DNA of 48,787 nt from Nitrospirota bacterium. GTDB lineage: Bacteria; Nitrospirota; Thermodesulfovibrionia; Thermodesulfovibrionales; UBA6898. The notes under the pieces are model-generated. The model did not search any database, had not been told where the DNA came from, and saw only the letters and a list, made by a program, of their open reading frames with translations. The stretch lies in NCBI GenBank assembly GCA_024275975.1, contig JAJRYC010000023.1, positions 1-48,787 of the forward strand. The letters are read 5' to 3'. A program made the position numbers and the translations under genes. This document shows positions 15,612-32,726 of the stretch, in pieces (within the stretch, counting starts at the first letter, position 1; each line of letters begins with the position of its first letter).

Positions 15612-17507
15612 ATGCGGTATATCATTCTTGGAACGGCAGGGCATATTGATCACGGGAAGAGTTCCCTTGTGAAGGCCCTCACCGGTGTTGACCCGGACAG
15701 GCTTAAGGAAGAAAAAGAGCGGGGAATTACGATCGACATCGGTTTTGCGGACCTGAGGTATCCCGAGAGCGGGCTCTCGGTCGGCATAGTCGACGTTCCG
15801 GGTCATGAAAAACTGATCAGTAATATGCTTGCCGGCGCAGGGGGGATTGATATGGTTATGCTGGTTATAGCCGCTGATGAGGGGATTATGCCCCAGAGCC
15901 GGGAACACCTTGCCATCTGCAACATGTTGAAGATAAAGGCAGGTCTGATCGCCGTCACAAAGACAGACCTGGTGGAAAGTGACTGGCTGGATATGGTTAT
16001 GGACGAAACAAAGGGCTTTGTGCGGGGCACTTTTCTTGAGGGCGCGCCTATAGTCCCTGTGTCGTCCGGGACAGGAGAAGGCCTTGATCTCCTGAAAAAA
16101 GAGATAAGGGAGATAGCTCTTAATGTCCCGCCGAAGACATCCGACGGATTATTCAGGCTCCCTGTTGACAGGGTTTTTACCCTGAAAGGATTTGGTACTG
16201 TTATTACAGGCACGGCTGTGTCCGGCACTGTCTCGATTGAAGACCCGCTGGAGATATTGCCGGGCCATATAAAGACAAAGGTCAGGGGACTTCATAGCCA
16301 TGGGAAGCCGATCCAGACCGCTTATGCGGGGCAGAGGGTTGCGATCAATCTCCAGGCTGTTGAGAGAGAAGACCTGAGAAGGGGGGCTGCCGCGGTATCG
16401 CCGGCCGGCTTTCAACTGTCGAAGACCATGGATGTATTTATTGAACTCTTCTCAGGGGCGCCTGAATTGAAGAGTAGAAGTCTTGTCCATTTTTATACCG
16501 GCACTTCCGAAACAGTTGCAAGGGTCATCCTCTATGAAGAGGAAAGGTTAAAGCCCGGAGAAAGCTGTTATGGACAGTTAAGGCTGAAGGAACCCGTTGT
16601 TGTAGTATCCGGAGACAGATATATCATAAGGAGATTTTCGCCCCTGGAGACACTCGGCGGCGGCGAAATCCTCGATCCCTCGCCCTTGAGAAGGCGGCGG
16701 AAAGACGGTTTTGACGACCTGAAGGTCATTTATCACGGCAGCCTTGACCAAAAGATCTCTCTGAAAGTACAAAAGTCCGGGATCAACGGCATTTCCTCCG
16801 GAGCAATAAAGGGCTGGATTAAAGCGGATGCGGGAAGTATCCAGGATTCGATTGACAGACTCAGGGATTCGGGCGAAATAATACAGCACGAGGATATCCT
16901 TCTTCACAAAAAAAGTTTTGACCTGTTTCAATCCCGTGTTTCCGAACTCGTCGGTGATTTTCATAAAAAAAATCCCCTTAAACCCGGGATGCCCAAAGAA
17001 GAGGTCAGAAACTGGCTGAAGCTTGATCCGGGATTATTTAATTTTATTCTTTCAGGTCTGCACGGAATCTCTGTCGAGAAGAACCTGATAAGGCGCGCGG
17101 AATTTAAGATAGCCCTTTCAAACAGTGAAGAGGCTTACAAAACGAAAATACTCGATTTGCTGGGTAAGGGGGGCTTTCAGCCCCCGCTGAAAAGCGAGAT
17201 GTCCGCGGCTCTGGGTGTGGAACAGAGACAGATTCTGGATATTTTAAATATTCTGTCAAAAGAAGGCAGCGTAGTCAGGATTAATGAATCTCTTTATCTT
17301 TCAAGGTCTGCCTATGATAATATGCTGTCGTCGCTTAGCGCCTTTTTTGACGGGAACCCTGAGTTAACGGTCGCGGAGTTCCGGGACATGCTTAATACAA
17401 CCAGGAAATATGCGCTTCCATTCCTGGAATATCTTGATTCAAGCAAGATCACCTTCCGAGCCGGTGATGTTAGAAAACTGTTGTTTAAACCCGGAAAATC
17501 CGGTTAA
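15612..17507 (+). CDS. selB: Selenocysteine-specific elongation factor SelB
   Basis: This GTPase brings selenocysteinyl-tRNA to the ribosome at UGA codons marked by a SECIS hairpin. G1 ([17 protein letters not shown]), the switch [10 protein letters not shown]3 DVPGHEKLI and G4 TKTD are at the N-terminus. Domains 2 and 3 follow ([17 protein letters not shown]), then C-terminal winged helices ending [20 protein letters not shown], which recognise SECIS RNA. Its length of 631 residues is normal. selA is about 14 kb downstream at 31317 rather than adjacent. A hairpin sits just upstream of the start. Confidence 0.96.
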
Positions 17508-21727: not shown

Positions 21728-22125
21728 CCGGTAATTGCAAATAATTATTAAGTCGTTTTAAAGATCATCGAGACTTCCCACCTTGTATAGCATTATACAC
21801 TTTTTTTCGGGTTCTTCAGAAAACAATCTGACAATAAATATGAGGCGGCGAGTCCGCTGTAATATTTCCGGGCGGGCGAGCTGATCAGTTTTGCTAATAA
21901 ATATATAAATTTCTTAAATTGGACAAATCTGTATATAATTTTATAACCTGTATGTAATTTGATAATTCTAACTTAAGATTACTTGATGATTGATACAAGA
22001 AATTATCACTAAAATATCGCTAGAATTCTCAATCTTTTATTACAACACATTTTTTATATACACAGTTTAGATGATTTGCGCTATTCTTTAATGCAGTAGT
22101 AATTTAATAAACAAACGAGGTGCTT
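21728..22125. other. 398-bp intergenic region, AT-rich, upstream of cytochrome operon
   Basis: This lies between two divergently transcribed genes (the GGDEF gene and the cytochrome operon). From about 21890 it is very AT-rich, unlike its surroundings. Several TATAAT-like strings occur, but none has a convincing -35 partner. It probably holds the cytochrome operon promoter and regulator sites. I see no gene in it. Confidence 0.45.
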
Positions 22126-23058
22126 ATGTCATTTAAAAAAATTCTGATTTTGGTCGCACCTTTACTGCTCCTTTCATTCGTTACCCCTCAGGAAGTTTTT
22201 TCTCAGGAATCGGCAAACTGTCTTATATGCCATAGCGCCATGAAAGGGAGGCTGAAGACCGCCGCCGGTGTTCTGATGGAATTGAATGTCGATACAGACA
22301 GATTCCAGGCCTCGGTCCACGGTTTTCTATCCTGTACCGACTGCCACCTGAGATTTTCGGATAACCCGCATTCATCGCCTGACGCCCGGGTCCCATCGGA
22401 GCTGCTTTCCATCTCTTCTGAAATCTCTTCGAAATATCCTGTTGACCCGGTTGCCGCCGCAGCATGTGATTCCTGTCATGAAGTCATCTACCAGAAGGTT
22501 CTCGGGAGCGTTCATGGCCGTAATATAACAGTTAAAAATCAGACGGACGGAGCCTTGTGCCTGGACTGCCACGGGTCGCCGCATTACATAACACCGGTGA
22601 AAGATGTGAACTCCCCGGTCGGTCGTCGGCTTCAGGCTGAAACGTGCGGCAGATGCCACGGAGACAAGGAATTAAACGAGAAATATAATTTGGAGGAAAA
22701 TGTGATGGAAAGCTACGAGGAGAGCTTTCACGCGAGAAAACTGCATCTCGGTCATACCGGAGTCCCTCTATGCTCAAGCTGCCACAACGCGCATGATATA
22801 AAATCAAAAGATGATCCTGATTCTCCTGTCTTCGGCAAAAACAGACTCGAGACATGCGGGAAGTGTCACGAAGGCGCCAATGAAAAGTTTATTCCAGCAA
22901 TCACCCATAAACCTGCCGGACCGATTCCGTATTATACTGAAAAGCTCCTGATAGTGCTGACAATGGGTGTCTTTGCGTTTATTGTTTTACACGTTATTGC
23001 AGAAGCCTTATCCGACATACGTGATGCGATTTTCAGGAAAAAGGAGGGATCGGAATGA
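22126..23058 (+). CDS. Seven-heme membrane-anchored c-type cytochrome
   Basis: This electron carrier has a signal peptide (LILVAPLLLLSFVTPQEVFS) and seven CXXCH heme sites: CLICH, CTDCH, CDSCH, CLDCH, CGRCH, CSSCH and CGKCH. A C-terminal membrane segment (LLIVLTMGVFAFIVLHVIA) places the hemes on the periplasmic side. Histidine-rich spacers (ASVHGF, GSVHGR, ESFHARK) can give second heme ligands. The next two genes encode a b-type cytochrome and a nine-heme lipoprotein, so it is probably the middle of a quinone-to-periplasm electron conduit. ATG 22126 has GAGG just upstream; a GTG at 22120 is an alternative. It is not a recognisable NrfA or NapC. Confidence 0.88.
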   Translation: MSFKKILILVAPLLLLSFVTPQEVFSQESANCLICHSAMKGRLKTAAGVLMELNVDTDRFQASVHGFLSCTDCHLRFSDNPHSSPDARVPSELLSISSEISSKYPVDPVAAAACDSCHEVIYQKVLGSVHGRNITVKNQTDGALCLDCHGSPHYITPVKDVNSPVGRRLQAETCGRCHGDKELNEKYNLEENVMESYEESFHARKLHLGHTGVPLCSSCHNAHDIKSKDDPDSPVFGKNRLETCGKCHEGANEKFIPAITHKPAGPIPYYTEKLLIVLTMGVFAFIVLHVIAEALSDIRDAIFRKKEGSE

Positions 23059-23804
23059 GCCGGCAAATTCCACCAGACATCGAAAGGTTTAATATCATTT
23101 TCAGAATACAGCATGTTCTTATGTTCACCACTTTTCTGCTCTTAAGCTTTACCGGCTGGGGTCTTAAATTCGCCTATGAACCGGAGGGGCTCTCCAGTAT
23201 CTGGATACGCGTCTGGGGAGGGGCTGAAACAGCGGGCCTCATACACAGGATTGCGGGGATAACGATGCTGCTCGATTTTATCTGGCATGTGCTGTATCTT
23301 GTGTATCTCTTTGCCAGGAAAAGGATGACCATAGATCTGAAAACTACGATAATACCCCTCCCGAAAGATGTCTTTGATCTTATAAAAAACTTTATGTACT
23401 TTATGGGTCTGTCTAAAGAGAAGGCAAGATTCGGCAAATATTCTTATGCCCAGAAATTTGACTACTGGGCCGTCTTCTGGGGAATGATTATCATAGGAAC
23501 ATCAGGTTTTGCGCTCGCCTTTCCAATGCTCGTGTCATACGTCATTCCTGAATTCACCACGGCATGGATATGGCAACTCCTGGCGATTATGCATAGCGAC
23601 GAGGCACTCCTTGCGATAGTATTCATACTCTTCTGGCATTTCTATAACGAGCATCTCAAGCCTGAAGTCTTCCCGATGAACTGGATCTGGCTGACCGGCA
23701 GGATATCGACTGAAAAGCTGAAGCATCATCATCCTATCGAATACGAAATGCTCTTTCCGGATACCCCGGAAAGTAAGAAGCCGGCAGATAAAAAGGATCG
23801 GTAG
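23055..23804 (+). CDS. Cytochrome b561-like membrane subunit
   Basis: This is a membrane b-type cytochrome like the gamma subunit of formate dehydrogenases and the b subunits of quinone-linked complexes. Four hydrophobic spans are visible: HVLMFTTFLLLSFTGWGL, a second with IHRIAGITMLLDFIWHVLYL, a third WGMIIIGTSGFALAFPM, and the last LLAIVFILFWHFYNEH. Histidines H21, those in IHRIAG and FIWHV, and the last-helix FWHFYNEH can ligate two hemes. It overlaps the previous gene by 4 bases. It likely exchanges electrons between menaquinone and the attached multiheme subunits. Confidence 0.87.
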   Translation: MSRQIPPDIERFNIIFRIQHVLMFTTFLLLSFTGWGLKFAYEPEGLSSIWIRVWGGAETAGLIHRIAGITMLLDFIWHVLYLVYLFARKRMTIDLKTTIIPLPKDVFDLIKNFMYFMGLSKEKARFGKYSYAQKFDYWAVFWGMIIIGTSGFALAFPMLVSYVIPEFTTAWIWQLLAIMHSDEALLAIVFILFWHFYNEHLKPEVFPMNWIWLTGRISTEKLKHHHPIEYEMLFPDTPESKKPADKKDR

Positions 23805-24566
23805 ATGTTGCAGAGGCTTATAACCGTTCTGTCCCTTATCGTACTGCTGGTTTCCTGTAAATGGAAAACAGGGGAGGAGGTGCTTATTATCGAAGAACCG
23901 GAATCCCCGATCATTGATTCACTCCGGGATTCCTCGCTTCCCTGCCTGCAGTGCCATGATTATGAAAAGTTCGCCATGCAGAAACGGGGTGAATTTTCAC
24001 ACCGCAAGCATATGGATTTTGGTGTGCACTGCAATCAGTGTCATATAATACGGGCGCATAACGAATTGACCATAAACAGGGACGTATGCGGCAACTGCCA
24101 TAAGCTGGCCGATTTTTCATATGAAGCCTCCGGCATGCCCGTTAAGTTCTCACACCAGAGCCACGCCAATAAATTCAACTGCGGGGAATGTCATCCCAGG
24201 AGCTTTAATATGAAGAAGGGCACCACAAAGATAACCATGGATGCCATGTACAATGGTGGTTCCTGCGGCAAATGCCATAACGGCAATATAGCCTTCCCAA
24301 CGGCGGAATGCAAAAAATGCCACGATATGTCCGGATTTAAAAAAGAACTGTCATATCAGTCCGGGGGTATTTCCCGGGCGGTCTTCAGCCATGAAACGCA
24401 TACGTCGATGTTTGACTGCGATCGATGCCATACATCAGTCTTCAAGTTCAGACAAGGCGGTTCCGGGATGAAAATGGACGATATATATCAAGGCAAGTTT
24501 TGTGGTAGCTGCCATAATGACCGGATGGCCTTCGGCCCGATGTCCTGTAAAAATTGCCATAAATAG
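23805..24566 (+). CDS. Nine-heme c-type cytochrome lipoprotein
   Basis: An exported lipoprotein (LSLIVLLVSCK, lipobox Cys at about 18) with nine CXXCH motifs: CLQCH, CNQCH, CGNCH, CGECH, CGKCH, CKKCH, CDRCH, CGSCH and CKNCH. The chain repeats a unit of FSHxxH, then CxxCH, then MDxxYxGxxCGxCHN; two clear copies begin near SHQSHANKFNC and SHETHTSMFDC. This points to duplication of a cytochrome c3/c7-like module. It directly follows the b-type cytochrome, separated by no bases. It may pass electrons to an outer partner or act as an electron store; the partner is unknown. Confidence 0.88.
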   Translation: MLQRLITVLSLIVLLVSCKWKTGEEVLIIEEPESPIIDSLRDSSLPCLQCHDYEKFAMQKRGEFSHRKHMDFGVHCNQCHIIRAHNELTINRDVCGNCHKLADFSYEASGMPVKFSHQSHANKFNCGECHPRSFNMKKGTTKITMDAMYNGGSCGKCHNGNIAFPTAECKKCHDMSGFKKELSYQSGGISRAVFSHETHTSMFDCDRCHTSVFKFRQGGSGMKMDDIYQGKFCGSCHNDRMAFGPMSCKNCHK

Positions 24567-26890: not shown

Positions 26891-27471
26891 CAATCGTTTT
26901 TTTATCGCTCTTTGCCTTTGTTCTTGGGTCGATACCGACAAGCCTGATAATAGCAAAAAACAGGGGAATAGACATAAGAAAGGTTGGAAGCGGCAATATC
27001 GGGGCGACCAACGTACTGCGTGCCCTGGGCAAGGGGCCGGCGATTCTGACACTGGTCGGCGACATACTGAAAGGTTTGACGGCCGTATTGGTAGCCAGAT
27101 TTTTTGAAGTTGGAATGTTTTATGAGGGTATTGTCGGATTATGTTCCATACTCGGGCATAATTTTCCGGTATTTCTGAAATTCAGGGGAGGAAAAGGGGT
27201 TGCTACAAGTATAGGTGTGTTGAGTGTTTATTCTCCTCAAACAGCCCTTGTTACTATTGTAATATGGCTGATGACAGTTTTCATTACAAGATATTCTTCT
27301 CTTGGCGCCCTGATCTCCTTCGGACTCCTGCCGTTGAGCATAATCATGTTTGATACAAAAGCAAAGTTCCCGATCGCACTGATCATTACGTTAATAGTCT
27401 ACGCAAGGCATGCAGAAAATATCTCCCGTCTCTTCAAGGGCACGGAACGGAAGGTTGGCAAGGCCGTATGA
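26887..27471 (+). CDS. plsY: Acyl-phosphate glycerol-3-phosphate acyltransferase
   Basis: This integral membrane enzyme starts phospholipid synthesis by acylating glycerol-3-phosphate from acyl-phosphate. The three PlsY loops are visible: GSIPTSLIIAK then VGSGNIGATNVLR, LGHNFPVFLKFRGGKGVATS, and RHAENISRLFKGTERK. The start is a TTG overlapping the pgsA stop (TTGA), which fits the conserved first helix. Its length of 194 residues is normal. It overlaps the next gene by 4 bases. Confidence 0.94.
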   Translation: MTIVFLSLFAFVLGSIPTSLIIAKNRGIDIRKVGSGNIGATNVLRALGKGPAILTLVGDILKGLTAVLVARFFEVGMFYEGIVGLCSILGHNFPVFLKFRGGKGVATSIGVLSVYSPQTALVTIVIWLMTVFITRYSSLGALISFGLLPLSIIMFDTKAKFPIALIITLIVYARHAENISRLFKGTERKVGKAV

Positions 27472-29144
27472 GAAGAATGCTGATATTAATCCCCCTCTAC
27501 CTCCTCTTGTCCGTGTCTGTTTCTTTTGCTGCCGCCGATGATGGTTTTTATGAAAGTCAGCTGGACAGAGGGATCAGAAATTCAGATGTGTATTCATATT
27601 TATTAATACAGGAGGCCGGGAAGAACAATGTCGATACAGTCGAAATCCTTAAAAAGACCCTGACTTATTCTCCAGACCTTCCGGCCGTCTATTTTGAGAT
27701 GTCAAAGGCGGTCTTCTCTTTCTCCATTACAGGTGTCCTGGACAGTTTCAACTACCTTCTGCAGGGAGTTGATGCATACTTCAGGAACTTCTGGTGGTCA
27801 TTCACACTGATAGAGTCACTTTTCCTCGGTCTCATGCTCTCGTTTATTGCGGCCATCTCTTTTACCATTGTGATAAGGCTTTTTCGCGATCTCCCCTTGA
27901 TTTCCCACGATATAAAAGAGACAGGCTCCAAGGTATTTTTCCTGCCTGTTCTCGTGTTGCTGTCGTTAATGAGCCCTTTGCTCTTCATGGCCGGCATACT
28001 GGTCATGCTGGGTGTCTATATGAAGGCGACCGACAGGATCGTTGTTATCCTTTTCCTGGTGTTTCTTATCTTTTCACCCCCTATTTTTAACACAGTCTCC
28101 CGTTTCCTAATGGCATCTTCATCCGGAGACGTAAGGGCGCTGGTCCAGGTGAACGAGGCCAAAGGCAATAATTACGCGATAACCGTCCTGAATAAAAATG
28201 ACGATGATTTCGCGCGATTTTCTTATGCGCTTGCTCTCAAGCGCGAAGGGTATTATGACGATGCGATTACCACCTATAAGCGATTGATTGAAAAGTGGCC
28301 CGACCCCAGGGTTTTTATAAACCTCGGGGATTGTTATGTCGGCCTGAACAGGATGGATGAAGCCGTCAATAATTATCTGGTTGCAATAAACATTAAGCCG
28401 CTCCCATCCGCTTATTATAACCTTTCACAGGTCTCGAGGGAGTTGTTCGACTTCGAAAGCGGCGACAGATATTTTATGGCGGCCGTGGCGCTTGACAGGA
28501 CAGCCGTGGCAAAATACAGGGAGACCTACGGCAGGAGTCCGAACAGGATTGTAGTCGATGAGTCACTCAATTTCTCCGACCTGTGGGATTATGTTATGGG
28601 GACGTCAAAGGAGACTTCATCATACGGAATATCAACCATTCCGCTGTCGTTGATACCGGCAATATCCCTGGTGTTGCTGGCCTGCCTGATAATATCGGAC
28701 AGGAAATTAAAATACAGGGCCTACATGTGCAGAAGGTGCAGCGCCATACTCTGCACAAAGTGCGAGAAACATCTGGCATGGGGGGAGATGTGTCCTCGGT
28801 GTTATCGGTCGCTTGTGAAGATCGAGGAACTGGACGTAAAACAGAGAGTCTCCAGGCTCCTTTCTGTCCAGGCGCATCAGAAAAAACGCAGAAATACGAT
28901 GAAAATACTTACCTTTGTACTTCCAGGATCGGCCCATATATACGCTGGGCAGATCCTCCATGGTTTTATATTGTTGTGGATATTTTTATTTTTTATCTCC
29001 GTGCCGGCCATAAATTCAATATTCAAAATCGACGGTTTTTCGGCCCACACTATGGTTAATTGTATAGCGGTCTGCGTTGCAGCCTCAGTGTATGGTGCTT
29101 ATAATCTGCTAACAAGACAGAGGATTTCCAGGGGATGGCTTTAG
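27468..29144 (+). CDS. TPR membrane protein with C-terminal zinc ribbon
   Basis: This 558-residue protein is of unknown function. It has a signal peptide (LILIPLYLLLSVSVSFAAA) and several membrane spans in the first third (SLFLGLMLSFIAAISF and VFFLPVLVLLSLMSPLLFMAGIL). Two or three TPR repeats follow at about 245-345 (YYDDAITTYKRLIEKWPDPR, NLGDCYVGLNRMDEAVNNYL). After another span comes a zinc-binding CRRCSAILCTKC...CPRCYRSL segment, then two further spans. It overlaps plsY upstream, and its last codons overlap the probable start of the DUF4388-pseudopilin gene. The arrangement suggests a scaffold acting with that neighbour at the membrane; this is inference. Confidence 0.7.
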   Translation: MRRMLILIPLYLLLSVSVSFAAADDGFYESQLDRGIRNSDVYSYLLIQEAGKNNVDTVEILKKTLTYSPDLPAVYFEMSKAVFSFSITGVLDSFNYLLQGVDAYFRNFWWSFTLIESLFLGLMLSFIAAISFTIVIRLFRDLPLISHDIKETGSKVFFLPVLVLLSLMSPLLFMAGILVMLGVYMKATDRIVVILFLVFLIFSPPIFNTVSRFLMASSSGDVRALVQVNEAKGNNYAITVLNKNDDDFARFSYALALKREGYYDDAITTYKRLIEKWPDPRVFINLGDCYVGLNRMDEAVNNYLVAINIKPLPSAYYNLSQVSRELFDFESGDRYFMAAVALDRTAVAKYRETYGRSPNRIVVDESLNFSDLWDYVMGTSKETSSYGISTIPLSLIPAISLVLLACLIISDRKLKYRAYMCRRCSAILCTKCEKHLAWGEMCPRCYRSLVKIEELDVKQRVSRLLSVQAHQKKRRNTMKILTFVLPGSAHIYAGQILHGFILLWIFLFFISVPAINSIFKIDGFSAHTMVNCIAVCVAASVYGAYNLLTRQRISRGWL

Positions 29145-30178
29145 AATGATCATTAACGGATTTCGGTCTCGCCGATATTCTTCAGCTTATTTATTTTCAG
29201 CGGAAGACAGGCATACTTACGCTTAAAGGGAAGATGGACCATGTGAAGCTTCTCTTTGTCGACGGGAATATCGTTGGAGCGGAATCCAGGAGGAGGCTCG
29301 CGGATAATCGGCTCGGCATAATTCTGCTCAAAAAGGGCCATATAAATCAAGCCGACCTCAAGACCGCCCTCGACGAGCAGCGAAATACCGGGAGCAAGCT
29401 TGGGGATATATTAATACATAAAAACTTTGTTGACAGAGAGTCGATAAGGGAAATATTACAGAATCAGATCACCGAGACGGTGATACAGTCTTTTGGATGG
29501 AAGCAGGGGACATACGAATTCGTGGCGCAGGGCGTTCCCCAGGGGGAATTTGCATTTGCGATCGATACTCAGCATATCCTTATGGAAGGCCTGAGAATAG
29601 TTGATGAGTGGTCTGTTATAAAAGGCCGGCTTACGCTGGAGACGGTTTTTATCAAGAGATTGGATTCCCCTTCCGGCCTGACACCGGATGAAGAGGAAGT
29701 TTTTGCCTATATCGACGGAGAGAACGATGTAAGTACGATTGTGGATCTTACGGGTAAAGACAATTTCGAGGTCTCCAAAATCCTACTGACGCTTATGGAA
29801 AAAGGGGTGGTCGAAGCTGCTCAATCGGCGCCTTTAATTACAGAAGTGGTCGAGGAGAGGAAGAAACCGTTTGTTGTGCCGAACTTCCTTCCCCTGGTAA
29901 CTATTATTATCTCATTAATCATCGCTGTCTACTTTGTATCAACGCAGCAGTTGGTCGACATAAAGGGACAGCGGGCCGCGGGTAATATCGAGGAACTCAG
30001 GTTTAAGATAGAGGTTTACAGACTCGAACATTCAGCCTACCCCCGAACCCTCGACTTAATCTCGGAGGCCGGGGATCCATGGGGACGACCTTATATATAC
30101 AGGGTGACGGGCCGTTCATTTTATCTTGCCAGCGCGGGGGCTGACGGTAAGGAAGGTACGCCGGATGATCTTTATTAA
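29135..30178 (+). pseudogene. DUF4388-pseudopilin fusion with in-frame UGA at codon 5
   Basis: From ATG 29135 the frame reads MALE, then TGA (29147-29149), then SLTDFGLADILQLIYFQRKT, which is the standard start of DUF4388 proteins, where Gly usually stands at the UGA position. After the stop codon the frame is open for 342 residues. No ATG, GTG or TTG occurs in frame until 29234, which would remove most of the conserved first domain. The order is DUF4388 (to about 90), a second domain of GspE/PatA type (about 110-230), a membrane span (LPLVTIIISLIIAVYFVS), then a type II secretion pseudopilin C-terminus: FKIEVYRLEHSAYP, DPWGRPYIYR and ASAGADGKEGTPDD. No prepilin peptidase site is expected because the span is internal. 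Nonsense mutation, sequence error and recoding are all possible. Confidence 0.75.
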
Positions 30179-31041: not shown

Positions 31042-31320
31042 ATGACAGAAAAGCTTTCCCATGAAGAGTTTGTCAAAAAGGCGATAGTGAGCTTAAGGAA
31101 AGAAGGTTACAAGGGTGTCCATAGTGTCTACTCGGGATTTAATGAGGCATTTAAAAAGTACTTTGACGGCGAGAACCCCGTTGAAGTCACAAACGGCCTC
31201 GCCAGGGAAGGTAAAATCGTAATAAGGCCGGTAAAGGGCGGCGTGATGCTTTACCTTCCGGAAGACGCGCCAGGGGGAAGCGACGCTGATCAGACACTGA
31301 AGAAGATGGGCCTTAGTTGA
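31042..31320 (+). CDS. Small conserved-looking protein, function unknown
   Basis: This 92-residue protein has a strong ribosome-binding site (AGGAGG) before ATG 31042. It is soluble and charged; LSHEEFVKKAIVSLRKEGYK and SVYSGFNEAFKKYFDGENP suggest helices. The middle part (EVTNGLAREGKIVIRPVKGG) resembles a winged-helix wing in size and pattern, which is a weak idea. It overlaps selA by 4 bases (TTGA), so the two are coupled. I do not recognise the family. A role connected to selenium cannot be claimed from position alone. Confidence 0.65.
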   Translation: MTEKLSHEEFVKKAIVSLRKEGYKGVHSVYSGFNEAFKKYFDGENPVEVTNGLAREGKIVIRPVKGGVMLYLPEDAPGGSDADQTLKKMGLS

Positions 31321-32726
31321 GATTAGAGAGTGACGAAAAACATAAGCTGCTGACAACCCTGCCTTCTGTTGACGAACTGCTTAAAAGTTCTGCCGGAAAC
31401 AGCTGGCTGCTTAGCTTTCCCCGGCTGACAGTGCTTCAGGCGATCAGGGATACGATTGCTGAAAAGAGAAAAGCCCTGTTCGACGGCCTGTTCCCTGACT
31501 TGTCCCCGGAGATACTGATTGGGGAGATCGAGGAAAGGATCCGGAAGTTTAATTCATACAGCCTTCTGCCCGTAATCAACGCTACGGGGATAGTCCTGCA
31601 TACAAACCTTGGGAGAGCAGTGCTTTCCGAAAAGACCATTAAAAACATTGTGTCCGCCGGCAGTGGATATTCCAACCTGGAATATGACATTGAGACAGGG
31701 AAAAGAGGGAAACGGCATACTCATACGGAAAGACTCCTGAAACAGATCACCGGCGCCGAGGATGCGCTGATAGTAAACAACAATGCTGCGGCCGTATTTC
31801 TGTGTCTTAACACACTGGCGAAAGGTCGAGAAGTTATAGTTTCCAGGGGTGAGCTTGTCGAAATAGGCGGCTCATTCAGGATGCCCGATGTTATGGACGC
31901 AAGCAGCGCCGTCCTCAGGGAGGTCGGTGCAACCAACAAAACACATCTTTATGATTATGAAAATGCGATCAACGAGAACACAGGCTTGATTTTAAAGGTA
32001 CACCAGTCAAATTATAAAATAACAGGGTTTACAGGTGATGTTAAGATTGAGGAGCTTGTCGGGTTTGGAAAGAAGCACGGCATACCCGTAATGTATGATG
32101 TTGGAAGCGGATGCCTTCTGGACCTGAAACCCTTTGGTATCTATACCGAGCCCACAGTACAGGAAATCGTTAAGTCAGGTGTTGATATATTATCATTTAG
32201 TGGAGACAAGCTCCTTGGAGGCCCCCAGGGCGGTGTTATTGCGGGCAGGCAAAAATATATGGAATATATCCGGAAAAACCCTCTGGCGAGGGCATTGAGA
32301 ATAGACAAGCTGACTATAGCCGCCTTTGAGGCAACACTCATGGAATACATAGACCTGGAAAACGCAAAAGAAGATATCCCCGTCATGAAGATGCTTCTTC
32401 AGACACCCGAAGAAATAAGACTGCGGGCCGGGAAGATAGCGGCAGCCCTCAGGAGAAGGATCAAGAACGCGAGCTTTAGTGTCATAAAAGATACATCAAT
32501 GGCAGGAGGAGGCTCGCTCCCCGAGACCGAATTCCCGACATTTGCTGTTTCAGTAAAGCCCGGAAGGATATCCGTCAATGAACTGGAATCAAGGCTCAGA
32601 AACAGCATGCCTCCGGTAATAGCCAGGATTAAAGACAGACTGCTGCTGCTTGATGCACGGACTGTACGGAAACAGGACATCCCTGGTATTGTGAGCGCGG
32701 TGGATTATTCTATCAATCTCCCCTGA
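31317..32726 (+). CDS. selA: L-seryl-tRNA(Sec) selenium transferase
   Basis: This PLP enzyme changes seryl-tRNA(Sec) to selenocysteinyl-tRNA(Sec). Family segments are INATGIVLHTNLGRAVLS, SNLEYDIETGKRGKRHTH, VNNNAAAVFLCLNTLA, REVGATNKTHLYDYENAI, and the PLP lysine K298 in FSGDKLLGGPQGG. Its length of 469 residues is normal. It starts at a TTG overlapping the preceding stop. With selB at 15612, two of the Sec genes are in this window; selC and selD are not seen. It ends the collinear run that starts at kdsD. Confidence 0.96.
   Translation: MRLESDEKHKLLTTLPSVDELLKSSAGNSWLLSFPRLTVLQAIRDTIAEKRKALFDGLFPDLSPEILIGEIEERIRKFNSYSLLPVINATGIVLHTNLGRAVLSEKTIKNIVSAGSGYSNLEYDIETGKRGKRHTHTERLLKQITGAEDALIVNNNAAAVFLCLNTLAKGREVIVSRGELVEIGGSFRMPDVMDASSAVLREVGATNKTHLYDYENAINENTGLILKVHQSNYKITGFTGDVKIEELVGFGKKHGIPVMYDVGSGCLLDLKPFGIYTEPTVQEIVKSGVDILSFSGDKLLGGPQGGVIAGRQKYMEYIRKNPLARALRIDKLTIAAFEATLMEYIDLENAKEDIPVMKMLLQTPEEIRLRAGKIAAALRRRIKNASFSVIKDTSMAGGGSLPETEFPTFAVSVKPGRISVNELESRLRNSMPPVIARIKDRLLLLDARTVRKQDIPGIVSAVDYSINLP

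Follow-up and report, generated by a model that had tools for sequence, protein, structure and literature searches.

An undescribed gene pair of Nitrospirota: a PATAN/MshEN protein ending in a GspG-like pseudopilin domain and its TPR/zinc-ribbon partner

Many Nitrospirota carry an undescribed pair of genes that encode a TPR/zinc-ribbon membrane protein and a second protein, in which a PATAN (DUF4388) domain containing an MshEN c-di-GMP-binding motif is joined through a single membrane span to a GspG-type pseudopilin head. The pair was encountered in a contig of 48,787 nucleotides from a Nitrospirota bacterium (hereafter, the window, meaning this whole stretch of DNA). The analysis establishes the domain make-up of the second protein, its predicted fold, the missing cleavage motif, its conservation and its co-inheritance with the TPR gene, and the anatomy of the protein is well supported. 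Its biological role can be read in several ways, among which a membrane-tethered regulator acting on pili or secretion machinery and an envelope function are considered below. The features of the two genes are as follows:

27468-29144, forward strand: partner gene, a TPR-repeat membrane protein with a six-cysteine zinc ribbon, co-inherited and overlapping
29135-30178, forward strand: whole gene, 347 codons in register with relatives, with a TGA at codon 5 in the assembly
29147-29149, forward strand: in-frame TGA (codon 5), Gly in 76/76 aligned relatives
29150-29614, forward strand: PATAN/DUF4388 domain, cytoplasmic (PF14332, E 1.3e-31; 61/61 orthologs)
29309-29467, forward strand: MshEN c-di-GMP-binding motif within PATAN (24+5+24 residues; NF053729; 61/61 orthologs)
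29645-29821, forward strand: winged-helix domain (TrmB, E 0.0013, below the Pfam cut-off; model residues 172-229)
29822-29872, forward strand: flexible linker (model pLDDT under 50; mapped approximately from L010 numbering)
29879-30031, forward strand: single long helix, comprising the membrane span (29885-29941) and pilin alpha-1 (model helix 251-301)
30032-30175, forward strand: GspG-type pseudopilin head, predicted periplasmic (PF08334; 3gn9 superposition)
30137-30169, forward strand: putative calcium-binding loop GADGKEGTPDD (exact match to the PERCAL motif, conserved)

Gene extent and the in-frame TGA

The original prediction began the gene at 29234, and the stretch from there to 30178 is the longest open part that starts with an ATG. 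This start proved to be a mechanical product of the open reading frame. Nearly all full-length relatives begin with MALEG, although V, L, S or G appears near the start in a few of them. Because this N-terminus maps in the window to the ATG at 29135, within the 3' end of the TPR gene that precedes it (ATGGCTTTAG), the alignment places the true start there and the gene at 29135-30178, with a premature stop in the assembly. One TGA was counted in the genome searches between 29135 and 30175, and the frame is otherwise intact, with its closest relatives at about 62% identity.

Since PgsA, PlsY, KdsD and SelA in the window all end in TGA, this codon is an ordinary stop in the host genome. Selenocysteine at codon 5 is ruled out, because relatives have Gly at this position and TGA is a normal stop in the host. 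As a separate observation, probable selB and selA genes, judged from their sequences, are located at 15612-17507 and 31317-32726 of the window, and the host genome seems able to decode selenocysteine with them, a capacity unconnected with the TGA at codon 5.

The TGA is either a nonsense mutation of the lineage or a one-base error of the draft assembly, which consists of 111 contigs. For the window copy only, it might mark a recent pseudogene or a shortened gene whose native start has been removed, such that either nothing is made or a protein is produced from the ATG at 29234 in which the opening strand and helix of PATAN are missing. This possibility falls somewhat short of an even chance. 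A stop at 29147-29149 where all 76 relatives encode Gly, read as a normal stop by the host, is what such a gene would carry, but the 342 codons that follow run without further disruption at about 62% identity throughout, and a consensus that is wrong at one base, in a draft of 111 contigs, would look identical.

Domain make-up and predicted fold

A cytoplasmic DUF4388 domain had been predicted ahead of the span, and this holds: the PF14332 match (109.6 bits against a gathering cut-off of 25) is followed by one membrane span. The GspE/PatA-like segment that had also been proposed does precede the span, and its description can now be sharpened, in that the GspE-like part proves to be an MshEN c-di-GMP motif set into the PATAN fold. 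The c-di-GMP motif model NF053729 matches inside DUF4388 with 59.3 bits, above its cut-off of 38.

The two-motif layout of MshEN (RLG...Q / RNTGS / KLG...Q) is present with exact spacing. Motif I (RLGIILLKKGHINQADLKTALDEQ) has every key residue, five residues form the linker, and motif II reads KLGDILIHKNFVDRESIREILQNQ, with K at position 1, N at the second Gly and I in place of the first Leu of LxxxLxxQ. The window Asn departs from the Gly present at this position in 50/77 sequences, and under the stricter pattern of PMC5013675 two MshEN motifs score in just 21/77 sequences. In PilF GSPII-B, a Lys at the first position permits tight binding (PMC11731258). For the family, c-di-GMP binding is likely, and for the window copy it is uncertain. 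The 24+5+24 motif and a predicted four-helix fold are common to MshE, PilF GSPII-B, NfrB and the window protein, whereas the window motif is inserted in PATAN instead of forming part of an ATPase or glycosyltransferase, and differs by its K and N at two key positions.

An AlphaFold model was generated for an intact ortholog (L010) from an alignment of 61 sequences, with a pLDDT of 81.6. In this model, PATAN strands and a helix (3-51) precede four MshEN helices (56-120) and a winged helix (172-229), which are followed by a disordered linker (232-247) and then a 51-residue helix (251-301) that runs into a small head. A Foldseek search with the whole model returned nothing under 1e-3, and domain-wise VIA alignments were used for this reason. 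The MshEN part superposes on MshE with c-di-GMP (5htl; Z 7.3, rmsd 2.7 over 60) and on PilF GSPII-B (8pe0; rmsd 1.0 over 55), and the winged-helix residues give matches with Z of about 8-9. The head aligns with Vibrio vulnificus GspG (3gn9) with Z 10.1 and an rmsd of 1.8 Å over 77 residues at 32% identity. A profile search of solved sequences matched MshE at 1.5e-10 and PulG at 3.9e-9; the latter match starts at residue 4 of the PulG chain, and the profile aligns the window helix stretch to PulG residues 6-60, membrane helix included.

The GspG-like C-terminus anticipated behind an internal span was borne out by PF08334 (T2SSG), which matches the full protein at E 2.3e-8 (34.5 bits, with the cut-off at 21) downstream of one span at residues 251-269. 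Significance of this match had been set beforehand as the point on which the prediction turned, and the C-terminal 85 residues alone give E 3.4e-10. The protein had further been expected to lack the usual prepilin processing site, and indeed no [G/A]-hydrophobic-x3-E motif occurs at the span. A class III leader (cleavage before Phe+1, Glu+5) is absent ahead of the span in the window protein and in 75/76 relatives; the sole prepilin-motif match, in relative L019, is at residue 228, well ahead of the span. The GspG equivalog model TIGR01710 gives 31 bits, short of its cut-off of 88.85. The C-terminal part is a pseudopilin-like domain and is not itself a GspG.

The loop GADGKEGTPDD fits G-x-D-G-x-x-[GN]-[TN]-x-D-D exactly, which is the PERCAL pattern of PMC3396595. 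This motif is present in pseudopilin 3g20, where D117, T122 and D125 provide side-chain ligands (PMC3396595), and these residues correspond to the conserved D337, T342 and D345 of the window protein. From knowledge of the family, we infer that the loop would bind calcium and that the pilin-like head would be outside the inner membrane. The long alpha-1, the head fold, YP, DPWG..Y and the calcium loop are thus common to GspG/PulG/EpsG and the window C-terminus. Unlike those proteins, it forms the C-terminal half of a larger protein, has no class III leader or Glu5, and is not encoded in a gsp operon. A GspG-like setting with gspE or gspF was not found at the locus, where the genes around it are plsY, TPR and queC.

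Conservation, neighbourhood and the partner gene

Proteins combining DUF4388 and T2SSG were found across much of Nitrospirota when the architecture was surveyed. Full-length orthologs share 41-63% identity, occur in 48/61 genomes of the nearest relatives (own genome counted), and come exclusively from Nitrospirota among the named full-length loci. Matches at 1e-30 are present in 71/246 Nitrospirota genomes, two of which (G061 and G078) carry soluble paralogs that have no span. Among 61 aligned orthologs, Pfam detects DUF4388 in 61/61 and T2SSG in 59/61, and NCBIfam detects the c-di-GMP motif in 61/61, which argues that selection keeps MshEN and T2SSG together. Related proteins of other kinds were also seen. 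Soluble DUF4388/MshEN-like paralogs from other Nitrospirota (L097, 5781-6593; L099, 6069-6899) have no span, pilin part or TPR neighbor, and host contigs C7 and C40 (L002 and L003) encode more DUF4388 proteins in open frames of 564 and 568 codons.

The TPR/zinc-ribbon neighbor named in the original prediction is directly upstream, and turns out to be co-inherited and overlapping across relatives. Of 246 Nitrospirota genomes, 70 have the TPR gene and 67 of these also carry the DUF4388/pilin gene. Each of the exceptions can be accounted for: two genomes hold paralogs, two have short contigs on which TPR pieces are present, and in the three TPR-only genomes the ortholog downstream of the TPR gene is divergent and has a shortened pilin part. 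The two genes are inherited in lockstep. Among 85 loci, of which some are redundant, 62 show an overlap of exactly 10 nt; the other loci range from an 11-nt overlap to a 40-nt gap. The gene order kdsC-pgsA-plsY-TPR-DUF4388/pilin gene is kept over most of Nitrospirota, with queC beside the pair only in the nearer part of the phylum. Elsewhere in the window (22120-24566) there are genes resembling multihaem and membrane cytochrome components with CxxCH motifs.

TPR repeats were found in 40/40 partner proteins scanned, and the six cysteines are invariant. The partner model has a pLDDT of 90.9, and its structural matches are generic TPR folds only, suggesting no function. The positive-inside rule and hydropathy give opposite answers regarding the side of the membrane on which the TPR block resides.

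A similar pair exists in a second phylum, which is that of one Myxococcales MAG (L053) and whose name rests on the title of that MAG. Here, the TPR gene is present in 32/113 genomes, and a DUF4388-span protein adjoins it in 23 of those 32. A PhoH-like gene follows the pair in the loci that were read and are long enough. Among 19 pairs read, the calcium loop occurs in 0/19 and the MshEN motif, by the pattern used, in 2/19, and only a pilin-like helix and hairpin are left of the C-terminus. Because the pair persists under these circumstances, it does not depend everywhere on the calcium loop or an intact c-di-GMP motif. The pilin-like end of these proteins (L124-L142) is degenerate (e.g., YP...YYY...LLAP), yet the single span is always kept. 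The phylum of a Verrucomicrobiota MAG yielded 0 matches in 79 genomes, a weak negative obtained from a search that had no positive control.

Possible roles of the pair

The preferred proposal, still tentative, which we regard as possible and appreciably short of probable, is that the protein is a PATAN regulator that responds to c-di-GMP and is tethered to the membrane, its uncleaved pilin end docking at the type IV pilus or type II secretion (T2SS) platform or at the TPR partner. The cytoplasmic PATAN domain, with its MshEN insert and winged helix, would bind c-di-GMP, and this half would contact a pilus or secretion motor as cyanobacterial PATAN proteins do. The pseudopilin half, comprising alpha-1 and a calcium-stabilized head, could not be cut by prepilin peptidase and would remain anchored in the inner membrane, its head facing the periplasm. 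It might serve as a docking end that sets the cytoplasmic module beside the pilin-handling platform or the co-made TPR/zinc-ribbon protein, and c-di-GMP would then alter the effect of the module on the motor. Docking on the machine and motor control are offered here as a hypothesis only.

This proposal draws on the motor contacts of cyanobacterial PATAN proteins and on a co-occurrence list for the Myxococcus pilus regulator SgmX. In cyanobacteria, PATAN proteins bind the pilus motor PilB1, with PilC as an additional partner of PixG (PMC12288463, a review; PMC7690835). PixG, PixE, LsiR and PatA share with the window protein a PATAN domain with an alpha-helical insertion, and contact with a pilus motor or platform is a likely further resemblance. 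However, the cyanobacterial proteins in the cited papers are PATAN-CheY-like response regulators, whereas the window protein has no receiver domain and instead has an MshEN motif, a winged helix and a pseudopilin membrane anchor. In M. xanthus, a phylogenomic search listed MXAN_3211 and MXAN_4965 (PATAN) and MXAN_6595 (TPR) as co-occurring with SgmX (PMC11580455), and this set, linked by co-occurrence to a type IV pilus regulator, can be likened to the pair by description.

Several other observations point toward a tethered regulator. Both halves resemble parts of one kind of machine, MshEN the N-terminus of pilus/T2SS ATPases and GspG the filament subunit. One 51-residue helix links span and head, as in pilins, the prepilin motif is absent, and the Lys at the first motif position is one that permits tight binding in PilF. 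The TPR gene is co-inherited and overlapping, and T2SSF-type platform proteins were found in all 23 genomes tested. These 23 include genomes that do not have the pair, and co-occurrence with pili is therefore uninformative. Because disorder is predicted for the linker that joins the cytoplasmic and membrane halves, tethering is favored over rigid, direct transmembrane signaling. Other evidence counts against the regulator, namely the pair of the second phylum that persists with its calcium loop gone and its MshEN motif mostly so, the Asn at the second Gly of window motif II, the premature stop in the window copy, and the location of the pair beside phospholipid and KDO genes, outside pil and gsp operons.

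A role confined to T2SS is unlikely, because full-length carriers exist in which GspG is not detectable. The host has its own GspG gene, which adjoins GspF on contig C4, but at E 1e-10 GspG was not found in seven carriers (G027, G039, G050, G238, G235, G225 and G065), and strict dependence on T2SS is thereby ruled out.

About equally likely as the tethered regulator, and thus just as tentative, is an envelope-maintenance or stress module unrelated to pili. In this case, the head would be just a calcium-stabilized domain in the periplasm, serving to bind the TPR protein or to sense periplasmic calcium, and the PATAN/MshEN/winged-helix part would pass its signal to other targets. Strict co-inheritance with the TPR protein and not with GspG fits such a module, as do the constant place beside plsY, pgsA, kdsC and kdsD in Nitrospirota, the carriers without detectable GspG, the disordered linker, and the persistence of the second-phylum pair without the calcium loop. 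Against it stands the specific resemblance of the head and helix to GspG and of the insert to pilus ATPases. The phospholipid and KDO neighbors may also be incidental, given that they were not seen beside the second-phylum pair, where a PhoH-like gene follows in the loci read.

A bolder version of the tethered regulator is unlikely. The protein would represent a class of signaling pseudopilin, a pilin that is never cleaved and has its own c-di-GMP receptor on the cytoplasmic side. Together with a dedicated TPR/zinc-ribbon partner, it would reside at the foot of a pilus or secretion machine and control how active that machine is. Very doubtful is a capping or priming pseudopilin, whose uncleaved head enters the base of a pseudopilus or pilus to block or start assembly until c-di-GMP releases it: a full alpha-1 with a calcium-loop head like that of assembled GspG would suit this task, and extrusion is impossible without a cleavage site, but the Glu at the pilin +5 position is missing, several carriers have no GspG at 1e-10, and heads are degenerate in other lineages.

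The literature on PATAN/DUF4388 is very sparse, and nothing relevant to uncleaved pilins fused to cytoplasmic domains was found in the literature searched. In this pair, three pilus-linked parts (PATAN, MshEN and a pseudopilin) reside on one chain, with one partner gene, across much of a phylum. If the tethered regulator is correct, the pair would show a second messenger placed directly at the pilin-handling platform, and PATAN domains would be assigned a definite place of action outside cyanobacteria. A further consequence would be that the pilin fold can be used as a fixed membrane dock, beyond its role as a filament brick.
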